Shown here one piece after another: positions 20,780-28,530 of a stretch of 64,000 nucleotides of DNA (its first letter is position 1; each line of letters begins with the position of its first letter). The stretch covers positions 2,177,501-2,241,500 of the forward strand of contig NZ_CP140153.1 of the NCBI RefSeq assembly GCF_034479635.1, read 5' to 3'. A program made the position numbers and the translations under genes. This DNA is from Guyparkeria halophila. GTDB lineage: Bacteria; Pseudomonadota; Gammaproteobacteria; Halothiobacillales; Halothiobacillaceae. The notes below the pieces were generated by a model. That model was not told the origin of the DNA. It saw only the letters and a list, made by a program, of their open reading frames with translations, and ran no database searches.

Positions 20780-21032
20780 GTCTAGCCTCCATTCGTACCC
20801 GATTGCCGGGCTAATGCGGACAGCAAACCTTGCCATCTCACTGAAAGTGTAGTCGAGCCCACCGCCGCCGTATGTCGTTCGTGCGCGACGGCAGCTATTC
20901 GCCTGCCGTGGCAGGTTCGTCCTGCTATCTTTATAACCACATGCCGCGTCAGTGCTGCCGAGACCGTCCGAGCCGCTTGAATCCAGCCGACTCCGGCGTG
21001 ACGCGGCCAACCCGACTCGGGAGGAGCCTCCA

Positions 21033-21494
21033 ATGACCGAACCGACCGTCAACCGCCCTGCCCTTGCGCTGTGGATGAGCGCCAGCCTGGCCGTGGCCGT
21101 CCTGCTGCTGTGGCTCGGCGCCGATCTTCATCCGCCCGGCGCCGCGAGCGCGCGCACGCTGCCCGCCTCCCCTCTGACCGGCGCCATGGGATTTGCCTTC
21201 CTGCTCGCCTGGGCGGCCTTTGCCTACGCCGCGTCGATCACCACCCCACACCGGGGAGCCGAACATGTCGGCCTGTGGGCCTCACTCCTCCTGCCGCTGG
21301 CCATCGTGGTGCTGCTCGGTGGCGGCCAGTCCCTGATTGCCCTGCTGCTCGCGATCGCCTGGCTGGCGACCTTGATCTGGACGGGTTGGCAACTCGCCCG
21401 CCGCGAGGCGCTTGCCGGGCTGATGATGTTGCCGGTAATCGGCAGTGCGATTGCCAGCATGCTGCTGTCGCTCACGCTTTGGGTACTTCCCTGA
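21033..21494 (+). CDS. Small hypothetical membrane protein
   Basis: A 153-aa protein I do not recognise. It is almost entirely hydrophobic with four to five helices: ALWMSASLAVAVLLLWLGA, GAMGFAFLLAWAAFAYA, LWASLLLPLAIVVLLGG, LIALLLAIAWLATLIWTG, and a C-terminal one ending LSLTLWVLP. The ATG follows a GGGAGGAG site by a few bases, which supports real translation. It is transcribed divergently from the exopolysaccharide operon, with an AT-rich patch (around 20915-20940, including TATAAC) that could be its promoter. A role in envelope function is only suggested by location. Confidence 0.65.
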   Translation: MTEPTVNRPALALWMSASLAVAVLLLWLGADLHPPGAASARTLPASPLTGAMGFAFLLAWAAFAYAASITTPHRGAEHVGLWASLLLPLAIVVLLGGGQSLIALLLAIAWLATLIWTGWQLARREALAGLMMLPVIGSAIASMLLSLTLWVLP

Positions 21495-21534
21495 CGCGCA
21501 ACCGCCCGACTCGAACCGGTCCTCCAGACAGAGA

Positions 21535-21567
21535 AAGGCCGCCAGATCCCCGATCGGCGGCCTTCTT
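21535..21567. terminator. Bidirectional intrinsic terminator
   Basis: A 9-bp stem (21535-21543 with 21556-21564) plus inner gatc/gatc pairing; CTT-rich on the plus side and TTTCTC on the minus side. It separates the membrane-protein gene (plus) from the small acidic protein gene (minus). Confidence 0.8.
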
Positions 21568-21589
21568 GATTTGCCGTTGGCGAACGGCT

Positions 21590-21799
21590 TCAGTCTTCTC
21601 GCCAGTGCAGGTCGATCCAACAGCGTGGCAATGGCTCGCCGGACGGAAACTCCAAATCTTCCTTCTCGAAGCGTTCCTCGTCCTGCATCTCCTCACCCGC
21701 ATGTTGCCGCCCCATCACGCTCGGCAGGGCAGGGTCGGCGAGGGTTTCCAGATCGATGATCTCGATCATGTTGTCGTTATCCTTGCGCTTGAGAAACAT
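21590..21799 (-). CDS. Small acidic hypothetical protein (69 aa)
   Basis: A 69-aa soluble acidic protein starting MFLKRKDNDNMIEIIDLETL, with a central EEMQDEERFEKEDLEF stretch and ending CWIDLHWRED. No domain is recognised. Translation is well supported by a near-perfect Shine-Dalgarno (aaggaggggg) directly upstream. It follows the host-attachment-family gene by 51 bases on the same strand, so they are probably co-transcribed and end at the terminator at 21535-21567. Confidence 0.65.
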   Translation of the reverse strand: MFLKRKDNDNMIEIIDLETLADPALPSVMGRQHAGEEMQDEERFEKEDLEFPSGEPLPRCWIDLHWRED

Positions 21800-21850
21800 G
21801 CGCCCCCCTCCTTGTTCGGGAAATTGTCTGTAGTCCGCTGTGAGCCCGAC

Positions 21851-22336
21851 TCATAGGCGTTCCGGCAGGGCGGCACGGATTTCCTCGGGCGACCGGGCCG
21901 AGAAATCCTTGGCCTGATCGGCCACCAGTGCATCCTCCAACCCCTTGCCCATCGCTTCGCGCAACAGGCCGAGAAAGTCGGGCGCGGCCATCAGGTAGAA
22001 CCGTTCCATCCGCCCCTTCTGCAGGGCTTGCTCGAGCTCGGTGCTTACCTCGCGGGCGAAGCGCTTGGCCTCCACGTCGCGCACACTGTTGGCCGGTTCG
22101 TAGGCATGCATCGCATCCCCCTTGCGATCGGCGGTCGAGCCCGGTCGATCCGTCTCCAGGTCCGCGTCCGACAACCGAGCCGCGGGGTTGGACAACGAGA
22201 CCACCTCTTCGAGCGCCCCCTTGGGAGCGGGACGGCTGGAGGGATGCGCCTCGCTGCCGCGATAGGCCCCGCTGTTGTCACGCAGCGCGAAAAAACGCGC
22301 CCGGGCCTCATCGGCAACCACTACCCAGGTACTCAT
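21851..22336 (-). CDS. Host attachment (AtsE/PF10116-type) family protein
   Basis: A 161-aa cytosolic protein matching the family named for a 'protein required for attachment to host cells'. The start MSTWVVVADEARARFFAL, the conserved DRKGDAMHAYEP stretch with a following FAREV helix, and the FYLMAAPDFLGLLREAM strand-helix are all characteristic. The fold is related to eRF1/Vms1-like domains, and the family name does not imply virulence. The start has an AAGGAGG site. Function in free-living bacteria is not established. Confidence 0.85.
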   Translation of the reverse strand: MSTWVVVADEARARFFALRDNSGAYRGSEAHPSSRPAPKGALEEVVSLSNPAARLSDADLETDRPGSTADRKGDAMHAYEPANSVRDVEAKRFAREVSTELEQALQKGRMERFYLMAAPDFLGLLREAMGKGLEDALVADQAKDFSARSPEEIRAALPERL

Positions 22337-22510
22337 AGGCTCGACCTCCTTGGTGTGTCATGTTGACCTGTCCGGAGTGTATACGCTGATCCTGCCACCT
22401 GCCGCGGAAACCCACGGGCACGGCGATCTCGTGCCACGGTTGGATGCGGCCGACATCGATCAAAGACGCGGGCCGCCGAGTTCCGCCTCCCGATGAGCAT
22501 CACCCATCAC

Positions 22511-22536
22511 AAAAAACCCCGCCGGATGGCGGGGTT
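22511..22536 (-). terminator. Intrinsic terminator after the rhodanese gene
   Basis: Minus-strand stem of 9 bp (22528-22536 with 22515-22523, GGAT-type loop) followed by six T residues (22516-22511), 26 bases after the rhodanese stop codon. It marks the end of the sulfur-trafficking cluster. Confidence 0.9.
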
Positions 22537-22561
22537 GGCGAATCATGACGCGTTGCTGGGC

Positions 22562-23557
22562 TCAGTAGAGCTGCGCCGGGTTGACCGAGGTGGCCCCGTC
22601 ATCGACATACATGCCGTATTCCTTCATGGAACCGTCGTATAGAGAGACATCATCGTTACCCATGATCTCGCTCGCGACGAACCACACACCCGAGGCCAGG
22701 TTGCCCGAGTTGCAGTACGTGATCGCCGCACCGCTCGGATCGATGTCCTTGAACTCCATGATCGAACGATAGCTCGATGCCGGCAGGAAATTGGCCGCCG
22801 CGCCGTCGGCACGCACGAGCACGTCGGTCGGCAGGTTCTTCGCGCCGGGCAGGTGGCCAGGCACCGTCTTGGACTTGCTGAACACACCCAGGTACTGGTT
22901 CGGCGGACGGGCATCCAGCAGCTGGACCTTGCCATCCGAATCGACCGCCTCGCGCACCTCGGCGTATGTCGCGAGGATCTCGTCACGCTCGTCGGTGGCC
23001 ATCCAGTCACCGGCCTCGATCTTCTCCGACTGACCCGTGCCGGCATCGAAGCCCGCCGCCAGCCAGTTGGCCAGGCCGCCGTCGAGCAGGGCCATGTCGT
23101 CGTGACCGAAGTACTTCATCTGCCAGTACAGGCGAGTGGCCTTGGTGTAATCCGAGCCGGACAGGCCCAGCGGCACGATCACCACCGTGTCGTCCTGATC
23201 CACGCCCAGGGCCTGGACGAAGGATTCGAAGTCGGCCTTTTCCGGGATCAGCTTGCCGACCTTCTTGCCGTTTTCCATGCGCTCGACGCGCACCTTGCCC
23301 CAGTCGACGAACTGCGCACCCGGCACGTGACCGGAGACGACGGAAACGACTTTCTTGCCCTCGACGGTCTCGTACTTCGGCGCCATGGCAAACGCCTTTT
23401 CCGACCCGGCAATCTGCAGAACCGTGACCTGTTCCAGGTTGTCATTCAGCCACTGCGGGTCGACCACCGGACCCGGCACATCCAGTGCCCAGGCCCCTTG
23501 CGCGACGGCCAGCGCGGCCGCCCCGGCGGGCACTGCGAGAAACCGCTTGAAATTCAT
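22562..23557 (-). CDS. Secreted double-rhodanese sulfurtransferase
   Basis: A 331-aa periplasmic protein with a signal peptide (AVPAGAAALAVAQGAWA) and two rhodanese domains. The first (about 35-150) lacks an active cysteine. The second has DGGLANWLAAG as interdomain linker, LLDARPPNQY and the active loop YCNSGNLASG with Cys282. It should transfer sulfane sulfur between thiosulfate, persulfides or a protein acceptor outside the cytoplasm. I chose the ATG at 23557, which follows AAGGAG by a normal distance; a TTG nine bases upstream is too close. It is the last gene of the cluster with YeeE/YedE and the Cys-rich repeat protein. Confidence 0.9.
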   Translation of the reverse strand: MNFKRFLAVPAGAAALAVAQGAWALDVPGPVVDPQWLNDNLEQVTVLQIAGSEKAFAMAPKYETVEGKKVVSVVSGHVPGAQFVDWGKVRVERMENGKKVGKLIPEKADFESFVQALGVDQDDTVVIVPLGLSGSDYTKATRLYWQMKYFGHDDMALLDGGLANWLAAGFDAGTGQSEKIEAGDWMATDERDEILATYAEVREAVDSDGKVQLLDARPPNQYLGVFSKSKTVPGHLPGAKNLPTDVLVRADGAAANFLPASSYRSIMEFKDIDPSGAAITYCNSGNLASGVWFVASEIMGNDDVSLYDGSMKEYGMYVDDGATSVNPAQLY

Positions 23558-23619
23558 ATGACTCAACTCCTTCTTCGTGCATCAACAAACGGCGCCAGCC
23601 GGCGCCGGAAAAGCCGCCC

Positions 23620-24318
23620 TCAGCCGGGCGGGGAAATCAGTTGCGCTTGCATGTCCACGAGTCGCCGTGACCACGTGGCCAACACCGCGTCCATGTCCAG
23701 CGAACACTCGCTCAGGACATGCCGGTCGCGATCGGCCAGCACCTCCGGATCGGGCCAGTTGCCGGAATCGGTCGTCAAGGCACGATCGCGCGCCTCGAGC
23801 AAGTCGCGAATTTGCGGCATCAACAGGGCGACCAGGGCCGTCAACCAGCGCCCTACCAGCCACGACGGGCGAGCCCGGTTGATCTCGAACCCGTTGGGCA
23901 GCTGCGCCAGCAACGCCGCGGCGGGACGGACCGTTTCACCGGTCACCCAGCCATTGGTGGTGAACAGACGCTGCGCACGCCCCTGGCTGTCCATAGACAC
24001 CGCGACCACATGCGTAAAGCCCGGCTCGTCCTCGTCGGCAACGAACAGGTGGAAGTGGCCGTGTTCGTTCGAGGTCCACTCGGCCGGATCATGCGCGTGA
24101 TAATAAAAACGGGCCCCACTGACCGGATCCCGGGCGTCGTCCCCGGGAAAGTGCGCCCAGTAGTCGAAGCCCTCTTCCGGGTGATCCCGGAACAGTTCGG
24201 TGAGCACGGTCTGGTTATCGGCGGCCAGCGCCGACTGGATCGAGCGCCATTCATCACCGGCTGCCAGACCGGCATCAAGCCAGTCGTCGGGCACGGAATG
24301 GAACGGCACGTCACTCAT
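23620..24318 (-). CDS. Conserved-looking hypothetical protein (232 aa) in the sulfur cluster
   Basis: A 232-aa soluble protein without signal peptide; I do not recognise its function. The N-terminal half is rich in aromatic and histidine residues (FRDHPEEGFDYWAHFPGDD, FYYHAHDP, EHGHFHLFVADEDEPG), which could form a metal site. A hydrophobic WLTALVALLMPQIRDLL segment follows. The Shine-Dalgarno is weak. It lies 31 bases after the Cys-rich repeat gene and 62 bases before the secreted rhodanese, on the same strand, so it is very likely part of the same operon. Confidence 0.7.
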   Translation of the reverse strand: MSDVPFHSVPDDWLDAGLAAGDEWRSIQSALAADNQTVLTELFRDHPEEGFDYWAHFPGDDARDPVSGARFYYHAHDPAEWTSNEHGHFHLFVADEDEPGFTHVVAVSMDSQGRAQRLFTTNGWVTGETVRPAAALLAQLPNGFEINRARPSWLVGRWLTALVALLMPQIRDLLEARDRALTTDSGNWPDPEVLADRDRHVLSECSLDMDAVLATWSRRLVDMQAQLISPPG

Positions 24319-24349
24319 CGAGACAACTCAGACCGTGCGCAATGCTCGG

Positions 24350-24790
24350 TCACTGACCGCCCGGGGCACAGGGATTGGCGCCGCGAGCCGACGGGGCACA
24401 GGGGTTGCCACCACGGGCCGAGGGCGCACAGGGATTACCGCCACGAGCGGATGGCGCGCAGGGGTTGCCGCCCCGAGCCGAGGGCGCACACGGATTACCG
24501 CCACGAGCCGATGGCGCGCAGGGATTGCCGCCCCGAGCCGATGGTGCACATGGATTACCGCCACGAGCCGATGGCGCGCAGGGGTTGCCGCCGCGGGAAG
24601 ACGGGGCACAGGGGTTGCCACCGCGCGCGGACGGGGCACAGGGATTCCCGCCGCGGGTCTGCGCGGCGGCCGACAGCGGCACCATCGTGGTCGCGGCAAG
24701 CGAGGCACCCACGGTGAACGCCATTGCCGGCATAGACAACTTAAGCGCGCGGCGGGCGCGCGCCTGTCGGGCGACCTTCTTCGATTCCAT
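24350..24790 (-). CDS. Secreted cysteine-rich repeat protein with ten NPCAP units
   Basis: A 146-aa protein of no family known to me. Residues 1-45 form an export signal (basic start, then MAFTVGASLAATTMVPLSAAAQ). The whole mature part is ten copies of a 10-residue unit RGGNPCAPSA, each with a single cysteine and no other reactive side chain except arginine. A GAGGAG site precedes the ATG. It sits between a YeeE/YedE transporter and a periplasmic rhodanese. Ten evenly spaced periplasmic thiols could carry sulfane sulfur or bind metal ions; both are inference. The reading frame is preserved across all repeats, which argues that it is a real gene. Confidence 0.8.
   Translation of the reverse strand: MESKKVARQARARRALKLSMPAMAFTVGASLAATTMVPLSAAAQTRGGNPCAPSARGGNPCAPSSRGGNPCAPSARGGNPCAPSARGGNPCAPSARGGNPCAPSARGGNPCAPSARGGNPCAPSARGGNPCAPSARGANPCAPGGQ
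24356..24655 (-). repeat. Ten tandem 30-bp coding repeats (RGGNPCAPSA)
   Basis: A 300-base block of ten contiguous 30-bp units within the Cys-rich protein gene. Units differ mostly at third codon positions, with coding changes only at PSS in unit 2 and ANPCAPGG in unit 10. This indicates selection on the peptide and recent expansion. Confidence 0.95.
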
Positions 24791-24861
24791 CTAATCCACT
24801 CTCCTCTGACAAGGGCGGGCGGCCGGAAAGCCAGCCCGCAAAATCACGCGGTGCTCTCCGC

Positions 24862-25527
24862 TCAATCGGCGTCGGTGCGGCGCGCGGCGCTGGCCTCTCG
24901 ACCCAGGTCGCGACCGAGTTCATCACTCTCGCCGGGGTCACGCCCTTCGGTGATGTCCTCGGCGCTGTAGACACCGTGACTGCGCTGCTCGAGTGCGCGA
25001 CCGGCAAAGAAGCCGCCCGCCAGCACCAGGAGCATCGCGGTCACGACCAGCCACGGCGAGACGCCCAGCAATTCCGGCACGGTGCGGGCCGATACCTGCG
25101 CCCCGGTAACCGCGGCCTGAATGAAATCGCTGTCATAGACGCCGGCGAAGGCCCAGACACCGATGACCATGCCGAGCATGAATACCAACCCGTCGATCCG
25201 GCCGCTGCCCAGCCCGACCACGGAGGTGCCGGGACAGTAGCCACCAATGGCAAAACCGGCCCCGATCAGCACCGCGCCAAGCACGGTGCCCCAGAGATAC
25301 ATCTCGGACACGTAGAACCCTTGTGCTCCGAAGGTGTTGTTCACCTGCAGCAAGAGTATGCCGATCGCCGCGACAATGATGGCCGAGAACATGACCTTGA
25401 ATACCGACCAGTCCGTCAGGCGAAACTGGGCGGTGAGTTTGCAGGGGGAGCCAAAGCCGGCCTGCTCGAGCACGAAACCGAACAACAGGCCAGTGGCCAG
25501 TGCGGTACCCGCGGTGCCGTAATCCAT
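24862..25527 (-). CDS. YeeE/YedE-family sulfur transporter, C-terminal half protein
   Basis: A 221-aa membrane protein with about five helices. It carries the family signature cysteines in FGSPCKLTAQFRLTD and GGYCPGTSVVGLGSGR, the type of residues that line the thiosulfate path in TsuA/YeeE. A charged cytosolic tail (from ~175) is rich in Glu/Arg. The ATG shares one base with the stop of the upstream half (TAATG), so the two halves are made together and should form one transporter. Substrate is thiosulfate or another sulfane compound by family. Confidence 0.87.
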   Translation of the reverse strand: MDYGTAGTALATGLLFGFVLEQAGFGSPCKLTAQFRLTDWSVFKVMFSAIIVAAIGILLLQVNNTFGAQGFYVSEMYLWGTVLGAVLIGAGFAIGGYCPGTSVVGLGSGRIDGLVFMLGMVIGVWAFAGVYDSDFIQAAVTGAQVSARTVPELLGVSPWLVVTAMLLVLAGGFFAGRALEQRSHGVYSAEDITEGRDPGESDELGRDLGREASAARRTDAD

Positions 25528-26039
25528 TACCAGACCCTCCGCATCAACAGACTGATCAGAATCCCGACCACGAAGAACACGATCAGGAAGACGAAACCGG
25601 CCACGCCCAGCATGGCCGTGTTGGAAAGGCCCACGCCGCTGGTGCAACCGGCCGCCAGCCGCGAACCGAAGCCCGCCAGCAGGCCGCCACCCAACGCGAG
25701 CAGCAGGCGCGGTGCGACACCGATGCGCCCCGAGCCACGATCGACCTTGACCCGGAAGCGCCCGGAGGAAACCGCCGCGAGGATCGCGCCAATCAGGGTG
25801 CCGATCGCGGCGACCACGATCCACGCCGCGAGCGGATTGCCCTGGGCCATGCCACCGAGATAGGCGTTCTCACGGGTGGCTTCGGGCGCAACCTGAAGTC
25901 CGACCTCGGTGGCCACGCGGGCGAAGGCACCGGACGAACCCATGCCGTTGCCCACCAGCACGAAGGTGAGCAAGACGACCAGGCCGAGCACGATGCCGGC
26001 GATAAAGGGGGGCCATAACGGCCGAACTTGGCAAGACAT
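25527..26039 (-). CDS. YeeE/YedE-family sulfur transporter, N-terminal half protein
   Basis: A 170-aa membrane protein with four to five helices. GSRLAAGCTSGVGLSN holds the conserved cysteine loop of the family. MSCQVRPLWPPFIAGIVLGLVV begins the first helix, and an AGGAGG site lies 11 bases upstream. It pairs with the overlapping C-terminal half gene. In YeeE/TsuA the two halves are usually fused, so this is the split form. A hairpin at 26089-26109 in its leader may reduce read-through from the metallo-hydrolase gene. Confidence 0.87.
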   Translation of the reverse strand: MSCQVRPLWPPFIAGIVLGLVVLLTFVLVGNGMGSSGAFARVATEVGLQVAPEATRENAYLGGMAQGNPLAAWIVVAAIGTLIGAILAAVSSGRFRVKVDRGSGRIGVAPRLLLALGGGLLAGFGSRLAAGCTSGVGLSNTAMLGVAGFVFLIVFFVVGILISLLMRRVW

Positions 26040-26088
26040 TCCCTGCTGGACCTCCTGGAATCAGCAATTGAAGAAAACATTCCTTTAA

Positions 26089-26109
26089 GGCCCGCCAACC
26101 CGGCGGGCC
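26089..26109 (-). terminator. Possible weak terminator/attenuator within the sulfur cluster
   Basis: Minus-strand 8-bp GC stem (26102-26109 with 26089-26096, loop of five) followed only by TTAAA, in the 122-base gap between the metallo-hydrolase gene and the YeeE/YedE pair. It may set different expression levels for the two parts of the cluster, or simply stabilise mRNA. Confidence 0.35.
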
Positions 26110-26161
26110 TGTCGACATCAACGCTCAGTGGGCGGGGGCTCTCCCCCGCCATCGCGACCCG

Positions 26162-27187
26162 TTAAAAGGCGGCCGCTTCGGCCTCGAGAAACGCGAGCGA
26201 GGCGTACTTGCCGATATTCTCGTCGAAACCGTTGGTCACGCGGGCGTAGTACTGCACCCGTTCGTCCTCCAGTGCATAGGCCTTCGCTGCGCTCGGCGCG
26301 GCCATGTCGGCCACGGCCTTCTCCGCCGCCTCGTAGATCCCCTGGAAGAAGATCCGGTTGTGCTCGATCAGGTCGTTGGCCGGGAAACCGTGCGCCGGGA
26401 TCCAGTAGGCACCCGGCACGCTCTGCTCCAATGCATCAAACGCCTTGAACGTGCCGAGGAAACTGCCGTCGTCCATGAAGGCGATGCGGTTGTTCATCGC
26501 GATATCGCCGACATGCACGATCTTCTTCTCTACCAGCTCGAGGCTGATGTCCGACGGGGTGTGTGCGGTGCCATAGAAGTGAACGCGCACCGTAAGATCA
26601 CCGAAGTCGAATTCATCGCCGTGACCGACCACCTTGTTCGGCGGCGTCACCACCGTGCCCTCGATCGCGTTGCCCGTGGAGCGCTCCATCAGGCTGACCC
26701 AGAACTCGCCCTGATTGGTGCGAATCGCCGAAGCGGTCTTCTCGTGCGCGTAAATCGGCACGTCCGGATTCTCGTTGACGAAGGCGTGGTTACCCAGCCA
26801 GTGATCGCCGTGATAGTGCGTGTTGAAGACCGCCACGATGGGCTTTTCGGTGATTTCGCGGATCTGGCGCAAGGCCATGCGACCGATCTGCAAGGAGGCG
26901 CCGCTGTCGATCACCACGACGCCCTTTTCCGTGACCGCGAAGGTGACGTTGCTCATCATCCCCTGATTGTCCTCGGAGGGAAATCCCCAGGGTGAGACGA
27001 TCACGTAAACGTTCTCGGTAATCTCGGTGGCCGGGATATCCGGCATGGGCGGCCCTTCGATCACCAGTTCTTCCTCGGCGAACACACGCGAGGACCACGC
27101 CAGAGGCGCGGCGGCCAGGCCCGCGGTAACCCCGATGTTGCGCAAAAAGCGGCGGCGCGTTGCCAGGAACTGCTCTTTGAATTCCAT
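26162..27187 (-). CDS. Tat-exported MBL-fold metallo-hydrolase (SoxH-like)
   Basis: A 341-aa periplasmic metallo-beta-lactamase-fold enzyme. A twin-arginine signal (RRRFLRN) leads to a hydrophobic stretch (GVTAGLAAAPLAWSSRVFA). The zinc motif THYHGDHWLGN gives His124, His126, Asp128 and His129; further metal ligands are in TAHTPSD, VGDIA and PAHGFP. The layout resembles SoxH and the quinoprotein-relay metallo-hydrolases found beside sulfur or alcohol oxidation genes. The start has a GGAGGAG site. As first gene of the cluster, behind a good promoter, it may act on a thioester or glutathione-sulfur intermediate, but the substrate is unknown. Confidence 0.85.
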   Translation of the reverse strand: MEFKEQFLATRRRFLRNIGVTAGLAAAPLAWSSRVFAEEELVIEGPPMPDIPATEITENVYVIVSPWGFPSEDNQGMMSNVTFAVTEKGVVVIDSGASLQIGRMALRQIREITEKPIVAVFNTHYHGDHWLGNHAFVNENPDVPIYAHEKTASAIRTNQGEFWVSLMERSTGNAIEGTVVTPPNKVVGHGDEFDFGDLTVRVHFYGTAHTPSDISLELVEKKIVHVGDIAMNNRIAFMDDGSFLGTFKAFDALEQSVPGAYWIPAHGFPANDLIEHNRIFFQGIYEAAEKAVADMAAPSAAKAYALEDERVQYYARVTNGFDENIGKYASLAFLEAEAAAF

Positions 27188-27299
27188 TGCCTTCTCCTCC
27201 AATGTGCCCGCTTTCGCCATCGGGGGACTCCACGCCGGACCGGCCATTCGATCGGACCGGTCCGGGGGCGAGCAGGCCATGTTTATTAGCTGTCTCTAA

Positions 27300-27328
27300 A
27301 TAATGATCGCCGTGCCCCGAAATTTCAA
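27300..27328 (-). promoter_or_regulatory. Sigma70-type promoter driving the sulfur-trafficking cluster
   Basis: On the minus strand TTGAAA (27328-27323), a 17-base spacer and CATTAT (27305-27300), 113 bases upstream of the metallo-hydrolase ATG, in an AT-rich intergenic region shared with the divergent Fur/Zur-type regulator. A 7-bp inverted pair (gatcgcc...ggcgatc, 27305-27340) overlaps the promoter and could be an operator. Confidence 0.55.
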
Positions 27329-27434
27329 CGTTGTGGCGATCGACATTGTTGATCCGACGTCAGGTTTGCTTCTGTCCAGGATGCCGGGCAACTACACTAT
27401 GATGCCTCATTGATTACTGGATAGCGGCGAATTC

Positions 27435-27896
27435 ATGTCCTGCGCGAATCACGACCATTGCATCGACGATGCCCTCGCCCGCGCCGAGGCGATCTGCGCT
27501 CGATCCGGCGCGCGCCTGACCCCGATCCGGCGCGACGTGCTGCGCGAGGTCTGGTCCAGCCACGAGGCCACCAAGGCCTACGACCTGATCGAGCGCCTCT
27601 CGAGGCACGGCGAACAGGTCAAACCCCCCACGGTCTACCGGGCGCTCGACTTCCTGCTCGAACAGGGCCTGATCCACCGCATCGAAAGCCTCAATGCGTT
27701 CGTCGGCTGCGAACACCCACAGGAGCCGCACCAGGCCATCCTCATGATCTGTGAGCGCTGCGGCGACATCCGCGAGGAAGACGACCCGGCCGTGCATGCG
27801 GCATTGAGCGACCTCGCCAACCAGACGGGTTTCACCCCCCGTTCGGCGGTCATCGAGCTGCGCGGCCTGTGCCGGGTCTGCCGCACCGCCCATTAA
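27435..27896 (+). CDS. Fur-family transcriptional regulator, Zur-like
   Basis: A 153-aa metal-responsive repressor. A winged-helix domain includes LTPIRRDVLREVW and KPPTVYRALDFLLEQGLIHRIES (the TVYRAL recognition helix of the family). The dimerisation part has two zinc-type Cys pairs, CERCGD and CRVCRTAH, plus HQAILMICERC. The N-terminus CANHDHC adds further potential ligands. These traits and the length are closest to Zur (zinc uptake regulator) among Fur proteins. It is divergent from the sulfur cluster and could control it, but Zur normally represses zinc importers, none of which is seen here. Confidence 0.85.
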   Translation: MSCANHDHCIDDALARAEAICARSGARLTPIRRDVLREVWSSHEATKAYDLIERLSRHGEQVKPPTVYRALDFLLEQGLIHRIESLNAFVGCEHPQEPHQAILMICERCGDIREEDDPAVHAALSDLANQTGFTPRSAVIELRGLCRVCRTAH

Positions 27897-27930
27897 TCCC
27901 CTGTCACACCCCATCAAGCGATCCCACCGC

Positions 27931-28530
27931 ATGAGTCCAGCACCCAACGCCAAAGCCATCGCCACCCTGCGTCGCGACCAGATCATCGACTGCGAACTGC
28001 TCGGCCAGCGTCTGACCCTGCATTCCACCTGGGGACTGTTCTCCCCGCGGGAGATCGACGCCGGCACGCGCCTGCTGCTCGAACACACCCCGATACCGCC
28101 GGCCGGCAGCAGCATCGTCGATCTGGGGTGTGGCTACGGCCCCATCGGGGCCAGCATGGCCAAGGCCTGCGCGGATAGCCGCGTGATCTTGCTGGACAAG
28201 GACTTCGTCGCGATCGACTACGCCCAGGGCAACCTGGGTCGCAACCGATTGGAGAACGCCGAGGCCCGGTTGTCGAACGGCCTGTCGGCGGTGGATGGCG
28301 AGGGGTTCGACCGGCTCTACTCGAACGTCCCCGCCAAGGTGGGCAAGGAGATGTGGCAGATCATGCTGTTCGACACCTGGCGGGGCCTCAACCGCGGCGG
28401 CGAGGTCTGGTTCGTGTCGATCAACGGCCTGCGCGAGTACTTCAAGCGGACGATGAAGGAGCAGTTCGGCAACTACGACAAGGTCAAGCAGGGCAAGACC
28501 TACACCGTTCATCGCGCCGTGAAGACATAA
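27931..28530 (+). CDS. RsmC/MTS-like SAM-dependent methyltransferase
   Basis: A 199-aa class I methyltransferase. It has the small-methyltransferase start LTLHSTWGLFSPREIDAGTRLLLE and the SAM loop IVDLGCGYGPIGASMAKAC. The acidic strand VILLDKDFVAIDYAQGN follows. The motif IV position, which in RsmC-type guanine-N2 methyltransferases is NPP[FY], reads SNVPAK here, so the target base may differ or the protein may not act like RsmC. It lies 34 bases after the Zur-like gene and may be co-transcribed with it. Confidence 0.85.
   Translation: MSPAPNAKAIATLRRDQIIDCELLGQRLTLHSTWGLFSPREIDAGTRLLLEHTPIPPAGSSIVDLGCGYGPIGASMAKACADSRVILLDKDFVAIDYAQGNLGRNRLENAEARLSNGLSAVDGEGFDRLYSNVPAKVGKEMWQIMLFDTWRGLNRGGEVWFVSINGLREYFKRTMKEQFGNYDKVKQGKTYTVHRAVKT

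Follow-up and report, generated by a model that had tools for sequence, protein, structure and literature searches.

In organisms with the Sox system, SoxYZ serves as a periplasmic carrier whose cysteine sits between small residues on a flexible tail, and the BigR operon brings together the BigR regulator, a persulfide dioxygenase-rhodanese fusion (blh), a DUF442 protein and a transporter of the PmpAB type. The present work concerns a gene cluster of Guyparkeria halophila in which a YeeE/YedE transporter is encoded next to a secreted protein with repeated Pro-Cys units (the PC-repeat protein), a DUF6969 protein and a secreted rhodanese; it lies at 22562-27187 of a 64,000-nucleotide stretch of DNA, hereafter the window, the source genome being a single 2.45-Mb contig. 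Within the YeeE/YedE family, Cys91 and Cys293 of TsuA are essential, PmpA and PmpB have been described as YeeE halves, and the import of sulfur is called poorly understood in the paper that reports on SoxT (PMC11582611). YeeE is also found with TusA, a DsrE-like protein and two hypothetical proteins in the YTD cluster of sulfur disproportionators (PMC13047784), while Guyparkeria possesses a complete Sox pathway and, when grown on thiosulfate, its cells bear a coat of sulfur (PMC9032823). The four-gene set described here is shared by sulfur oxidisers, has not been described before and probably serves to pass sulfur atoms on to the cell interior, and two of its four core parts, the PC-repeat protein and DUF6969, are without known function.

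Translation of open reading frames (ORFs) and Pfam/NCBIfam profiles agree on six ORFs, all on the minus strand, in the 5′ to 3′ order metallo-β-lactamase (MBL)-fold hydrolase, YeeE_A, YeeE_B, NPCAP-repeat protein, DUF6969 and tandem rhodanese (Table 1). The first-pass annotation had described six genes running in one direction over this region, and all were recovered: the Tat-exported SoxH-like hydrolase by its Tat motif, intact HxHxDH site and PF00753 match, the split YeeE/YedE transporter by PF04143 scores above the cut-off for both halves, the secreted protein of ten NPCAP units by unit count and spacing, and the secreted double rhodanese by the twofold occurrence of PF00581 and a match to 1dp2. 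What had been termed a His-rich unknown protein is a real gene, the product of which is a member of Pfam DUF6969 and stands out for an invariant His cluster.

Conservation of the cassette and its link to sulfur oxidation

Reading of gene neighbourhoods identified a core consisting of YeeE, PC-repeat protein, DUF6969 and rhodanese, in constant order, in 10 further gammaproteobacterial families, as well as in a Quisquiliibacterium metagenome-assembled genome (L180) and, outside the class, in a single genome (L273). A conserved cassette is hereby established; the first-pass annotation had named a lack of co-occurrence in other genomes as grounds for refutation, and its proposal survived this check, the four genes being found together in many families. 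The hydrolase was seen only in the cassettes of Guyparkeria and Halothiobacillus and not in any cassette outside the family of the window, and is therefore regarded as accessory rather than core. DUF6969 is encoded directly beside the rhodanese orthologue (threshold E <1e-120) in 13 of 16 genomes (Fisher p 9e-13, or 6e-10 without the own genus, values that are inflated by shared descent), and a broader sample of 398 genomes of the phylum contained four further genomes with the rhodanese, each of which (4/4) carries the whole cassette. The distance matrices of DUF6969 and rhodanese are correlated with a similarly inflated Mantel r of 0.875, which fits inheritance as a unit but also plain species phylogeny.

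A genomic link to Sox is established by the presence of soxB in 12 of 13 cassette genomes as compared to 104 of 261 others (40%; p 2e-4, or 0.002 without Guyparkeria, values that are likewise not adjusted for common descent). Directly downstream of the cassette of L274, at L274:9565-14878, lie genes for a BigR-like ArsR regulator (102 bits against a cut-off of 155), a second ArsR, soxC (604 bits, above cut-off) and a soxD-like cytochrome; the Pfam/NCBIfam profiles revealed neither a BigR regulator nor a persulfide dioxygenase-rhodanese fusion in the cluster of the window. A sulfur-related role of the cassette is supported by its association with soxB and soxC and by the BigR-like regulator.

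Both halves of the split transporter belong to the YeeE/YedE (Sulf_transp) family, with PF04143 scores of 64.8 and 69.4 bits against a cut-off of 27, and are predicted to transport thiosulfate or sulfane sulfur; their ORFs overlap by one base. In the split copies the motifs GGYC (GGYCPGTS in YeeE_B), the equivalent of TsuA Cys91, and AAGC (AAGCTSG in YeeE_A), the equivalent of Cys293, are both invariant. Most families encode YeeE as a fused TsuA-like protein of 380-410 amino acids (8j4c, E 6e-12; PF04143 214 bits for the copy of L098), with GGGC and FGCNIG invariant among the copies compared, and the cassette of L273, outside the Gammaproteobacteria, is also of this type. The small protein that accompanies the fused YeeE is probably membrane-anchored, with the consensus GSAxGLAAIAxAIDHTRHxLPEP and terminal SPCGL/SPCSL units; in these other cassettes the repeat may take the form of a short membrane-anchored [N/S]PC[AGS]L peptide. 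A split YeeE combined with NPCGP or NPCAP repeats, as in the window, was found in L180 and in L274-L276, three genomes that belong to one additional family; in L085 the contig stops before YeeE. Two YeeE types, one fused and TsuA-like, the other split and PmpAB-like, occupy the transporter position, which ties YeeE activity to the module. Outside the cluster, the own genome encodes a second split YeeE pair (C1:1143346-1144266) and a full-length YeeE (C1:1648760-1649764), the latter with an MBL-fold gene approximately 3 kb off.

The rhodanese comprises two rhodanese domains, of which the second contains the catalytic cysteine (YCNSGNLASG), and the alignment established Cys282 as invariant within YCN[ST]G. 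Export signals were recognised by reading of the N-termini of the rhodanese and the PC-repeat protein. The repeat gene of the window encodes exactly ten NPCA units at a spacing of 10, the units differing by 155 synonymous and 7 non-synonymous codon changes with none of the latter in N-P-C-A-P, which indicates that the repeat is kept by selection at the protein level and is not the product of fresh DNA duplication. A genome-wide DNA-pattern search revealed no second such repeat locus in the own genome. The loci counted contain between 4 and 12 units, depending on the species, with the motif kept, and the DNA pattern points to approximately 14 in one genome. In 16 cassette tails Pro stands before each of the 93 cysteines (93/93), Ala, Gly or Ser comes after 92 of the 93, and none of these tails contains a CxxC metal-type motif; such isolated sites favour single-cysteine chemistry over a metallothionein, while metal binding is still compatible with them. 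The open literature, the extent of our search, contained no mention of the NPCAAK repeat.

A possible sulfur relay and its rivals

Judged from sequence and gene context, the cassette may constitute a periplasmic sulfane-sulfur relay of sulfur-oxidising bacteria that feeds YeeE, a reading to which we tentatively assign a probability of about 0.45. The secreted rhodanese would charge its Cys282 with sulfane sulfur, the source of which could be thiosulfate, polysulfide or intermediates of Sox, and would pass it to the exported PC-repeat protein, in which the separate Pro-Cys sites may form a series of carriers in the persulfide or thiosulfonate state; these would in turn deliver to the two-cysteine YeeE channel, whether fused or composed of PmpA and PmpB, for passage into the cytoplasm. 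DUF6969 most likely remains cytoplasmic and readies the PC-repeat protein prior to export, either by a metal-dependent modification or by keeping its cysteines reduced. We infer the substrate, the direction in which sulfur moves, the function of the PC-repeat protein as a carrier and that of DUF6969. Such a relay is the simplest interpretation, and it is supported by the sharing of one slot by two YeeE types. The handling of periplasmic sulfur proposed in the first-pass annotation is supported in part, by co-occurrence and by the soxB, soxC and BigR-like links, and the flow that it envisaged, from rhodanese by way of the repeat protein to YeeE, is plausible; but the hydrolase lies outside the conserved core, DUF6969 had been passed over although it is the most constant partner, and the repeat is a general element that is found on cytochromes as well.

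Several observations weigh against a relay. Three genomes possess the rhodanese orthologue without an adjacent DUF6969, and shared descent makes the Fisher and Mantel values too high in significance. DUF6969 and PC-repeat genes also occur together without rhodanese or YeeE, in some instances in genomes lacking a soxB match (e.g. L090 and L084), and sulfur import is consequently not the whole role of the pair. Furthermore, PC repeats in other contexts (L247 and L090) bear stretches rich in Met, His and Cys that look metal-binding.

The foremost rival explanation holds that DUF6969 and the PC-repeat protein resemble a pair of the ribosomally synthesised and post-translationally modified peptide (RiPP) type, whereby DUF6969 would be a metal-dependent cytoplasmic enzyme that modifies the cysteine in every PC unit, and the exported peptide would then bind a metal, e.g. 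copper, or have a redox or sulfur function; the association with YeeE and rhodanese would be one context among several. We regard this as rather unlikely, and as compatible in part with the relay. In its favour, a Cys-repeat or Cys-rich exported peptide adjoins DUF6969 in 17 of 20 gammaproteobacterial loci, with or without YeeE or rhodanese, although two of the 17 (L091 and L092) are Cys-rich peptides with other motifs that were identified by eye. In these two loci the peptides upstream of DUF6969 (CAATCAATCAG; GCCGCCGCCGCC) stand in the place of the PC-repeat protein. No other partner of Cys-repeat proteins is as constant as DUF6969. Its linkage to PC-repeat proteins is shown by these loci, and because it accompanies them in the absence of rhodanese or YeeE, DUF6969 probably serves the repeat protein. 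It is present in 26 of 274 gammaproteobacterial genomes, and NPC-repeat DNA is enriched with it genome-wide (10/21 as compared to 16/253 genomes; p 2e-6, or 2e-4 without the own genus), even with approximately six of the 21 DNA-pattern matches, which look out of frame by eye, left in the test as counter-examples. A rule that DUF6969 always has a PC-repeat neighbour fails in many alphaproteobacteria; in alphaproteobacterial genomes where such a neighbour is missing, NPC repeats occur elsewhere in 12 of 21, as compared to 21 of 274 in the gammaproteobacterial sample (p 8e-8), the two samples differing in taxonomy. Five Azospirillum genomes contain DUF6969 and no NPC repeat, which speaks against such a pair.

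The sequence of DUF6969 itself bears on the same question. The profile PF22308 scores 196.5 bits against a cut-off of 27, no export signal was seen on reading the N-terminus, and a cluster of His and Glu residues (Table 1) is invariant, together with H103 and others, in 21 diverse DUF6969 sequences; this cluster is a probable metal or catalytic site, metal binding being predicted from the residues. An AlphaFold2 model was confident (pLDDT 92), and neither a PDB sequence search with the DUF6969 alignment nor a Foldseek search of the model against the PDB returned a match (best Foldseek E 0.28, TM <0.3). DUF6969 is best placed as a cytoplasmic partner that prepares the repeat protein, whether by cysteine modification, by metallation or as a mere chaperone, and it is conceivable, if doubtful, that it founds a novel family of enzymes, of unknown fold, which act on cysteines in the [N/S]PC repeats of exported peptides and cytochrome tails by modifying them. 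A tested precedent exists in the MNIO captophorins, peptides of Cys-containing 5-mer repeats that an enzyme encoded nearby modifies repeat by repeat (PMC12668002). Against this, the cassette contains no MNIO or other known RiPP enzyme, the sole MNIO of the genome being 1.96 Mb away, and the open literature, to which our search extended, makes no mention of DUF6969 or of an enzymatic activity for it. If such modification does take place, PC-repeat proteins would form a new, widespread class of modified cysteine polymers, and the cassette of the window would be the version for sulfur via YeeE.

NPC tails occur on two kinds of cytochrome, SoxA/TsdA-type cytochromes c and P460 cytochromes, which makes the NPC-type repeat a general element. 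Cytochromes c of the SoxA/TsdA type (or CCP/MauG-like) with NPC stretches are encoded at L081:7760-8530, L082:11257-11949 and L245:8810-9724 by family match, and at L247:9730-10383 and L248:8157-8843 by sequence resemblance, often near genes for separate NPC-repeat peptides, DUF302, thioredoxin-like proteins or YeeE. Alphaproteobacterial NPC units are fused to a cytochrome P460-type domain in L147:5532-7079 (20 units; family match) and, by resemblance, in L115:5680-6999, L120:5300-6565 and L278:7263-8408; a secreted SUMF1/FGE-like protein is encoded beside the NPC-P460 gene in L147 and L115. In L137 and L152, titled Mesoflavibacter and Phormidium, DUF6969 is most like the alphaproteobacterial form, and mislabelled or contaminated assemblies are possible.

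Alternatively, the PC-repeat protein could be an unmodified exported thiol buffer that absorbs a surplus of sulfane sulfur, of metals or of oxidants, with rhodanese and YeeE engaged in detoxification of sulfide, cyanide, or selenite/tellurite and not in energy metabolism. The variable unit number with a retained motif is as for a buffering protein, and the rhodanese has some resemblance to ExtH of selenite/tellurite operons (NF040901; 87.6 bits, below the cut-off of 200), but the strong soxB link and the soxC neighbourhood, and the fact that no Ext partner genes were recognised in the cassettes examined, make this explanation improbable. It is highly improbable that the cluster is an accessory to a quinoprotein, i.e. 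a pyrroloquinoline quinone (PQQ) alcohol dehydrogenase, as suggested by the joint occurrence of rhodanese, SoxYZ-like protein and SoxH in the ped cluster (PMC12997753) and of PmpAB, SoxYZ and SoxH in Hyphomicrobium (PMC11582611), since the best NCBIfam matches of the hydrolase, although to SoxH-related families of quinoprotein relays, remain below the cut-offs (TIGR04558, 133/300 bits; TIGR04559, 148/280 bits), the hydrolase is confined as stated above, and neither a PQQ dehydrogenase nor a SoxYZ-like carrier gene is among the proteins examined at 20952-28527.

Organisation of the locus

The six-gene order is identical in every complete locus of Guyparkeria and Halothiobacillus, the close relatives compared for local conservation, and in all of these the upstream flank consists of a divergent Zur-like gene and a methyltransferase gene. 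The hydrolase carries TRRRFLRN as its twin-arginine motif, and its HxHxDH site is complete. A good promoter and a strong terminator had been assumed to enclose the cluster, and both consensus scans performed at chance level (1 found as compared to 1.0 expected for the promoter; 4 as compared to 4.0 for terminators). The promoter is nevertheless supported by conservation between the two genera, as TTGAAA-17-CATTAT of Guyparkeria and TTGAAT-17-CAAGAT of Halothiobacillus share position, 17-base spacing and an invariant core; in favour of the terminator, the stable hairpin with a T-run at 22536-22515 comes straight after the last stop codon, and its region folds with a z of -2.6. A GC-rich hairpin with a short T-run at 23590-23607, between the DUF6969 and rhodanese genes, is a possible partial terminator inside the operon. 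Rfam returned no match in the region.

The Zur-like Fur-family regulator gene (27435-27896, divergent) keeps its position in both genera and a zinc link to the metallohydrolase is possible; as a regulator of the cluster it was set aside, no Zur box having been established, and it is retained as a neighbour. Host_attach (21854-22336), downstream of the rhodanese gene in Guyparkeria, was rejected as a cluster member as it was not found in the Halothiobacillus loci, and its absence there marks the end of the cluster.

Table 1. Features of the cluster, with positions in the window
Feature	Position	Strand	Basis
Promoter of sigma-70 type (TTGAAA-17-CATTAT) ahead of the metallohydrolase gene	27300..27328	-	Scan and two-genus conservation
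Tat-exported MBL-fold hydrolase, SoxH-related	26162..27187	-	PF00753 E 3e-25
YeeE_A, PmpA-like C-terminal half of YeeE/YedE	25527..26039	-	PF04143 profile positions 176-308
YeeE_B, PmpB-like N-terminal half of YeeE/YedE	24862..25527	-	PF04143 profile positions 3-149; DUF6691
Secreted PC-repeat protein, signal peptide and ten NPCAP-x-x-R-G-G units, one Cys each	24350..24790	-	Translation, unit count
DUF6969 protein, candidate partner/modifier of the PC-repeat protein	23620..24318	-	PF22308 E 5e-58
Invariant cluster Y73 H74 x H76 ... E85 H86 G87 H88 F89 H90 x F92	24043..24102	-	Alignment
Secreted tandem-domain rhodanese	22562..23557	-	PF00581 in two stretches; rhodanese 1dp2 E 3e-25
Terminator-like hairpin with T-run	22515..22536	-	9 pairs; 26 bases after the last stop codon

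Comparison with described systems

The ped and other quinoprotein-relay clusters share with this locus the combination of a SoxH-related hydrolase, an exported rhodanese and a PmpAB-like transporter, whereas the cassette adds the PC-repeat protein and DUF6969, is without a PQQ dehydrogenase or SoxYZ-like carrier, and does not conserve the hydrolase. The MNIO captophorins and bufferins (EGKCG and others) are similar in having many identical short cysteine units beside a cytoplasmic protein in which a cluster of His residues is invariant; however, the cassette lacks an MNIO (DUF692, PF05114), its motif is PC[AGS] and not KC or CK, and DUF6969 has no fold match in the PDB. A cysteine flanked by small residues is common to SoxYZ and the PC-repeat protein, the latter having a repeat in place of one GGCGG arm and no match to a SoxY or SoxZ domain. 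The YTD cluster is likewise conserved and centred on YeeE with unknown partners, but contains no rhodanese, PC-repeat protein or DUF6969, its partners being DsrEFH-like.

TsuA, SoxT and PmpA/PmpB belong to the same family as the cassette transporter, which keeps both essential cysteines, while their partners are TsuB/TusA, Sox or BigR-operon genes and none has been described with a PC-repeat protein and DUF6969. The link between the latter two gives a first clue to the function of a Pfam DUF and of a recurrent cysteine-repeat element, one that is found on SoxA/TsdA-type and P460 cytochromes as well, and for the route of sulfane sulfur from periplasm to cytoplasm the cassette offers a defined, conserved four-gene candidate in culturable strains.

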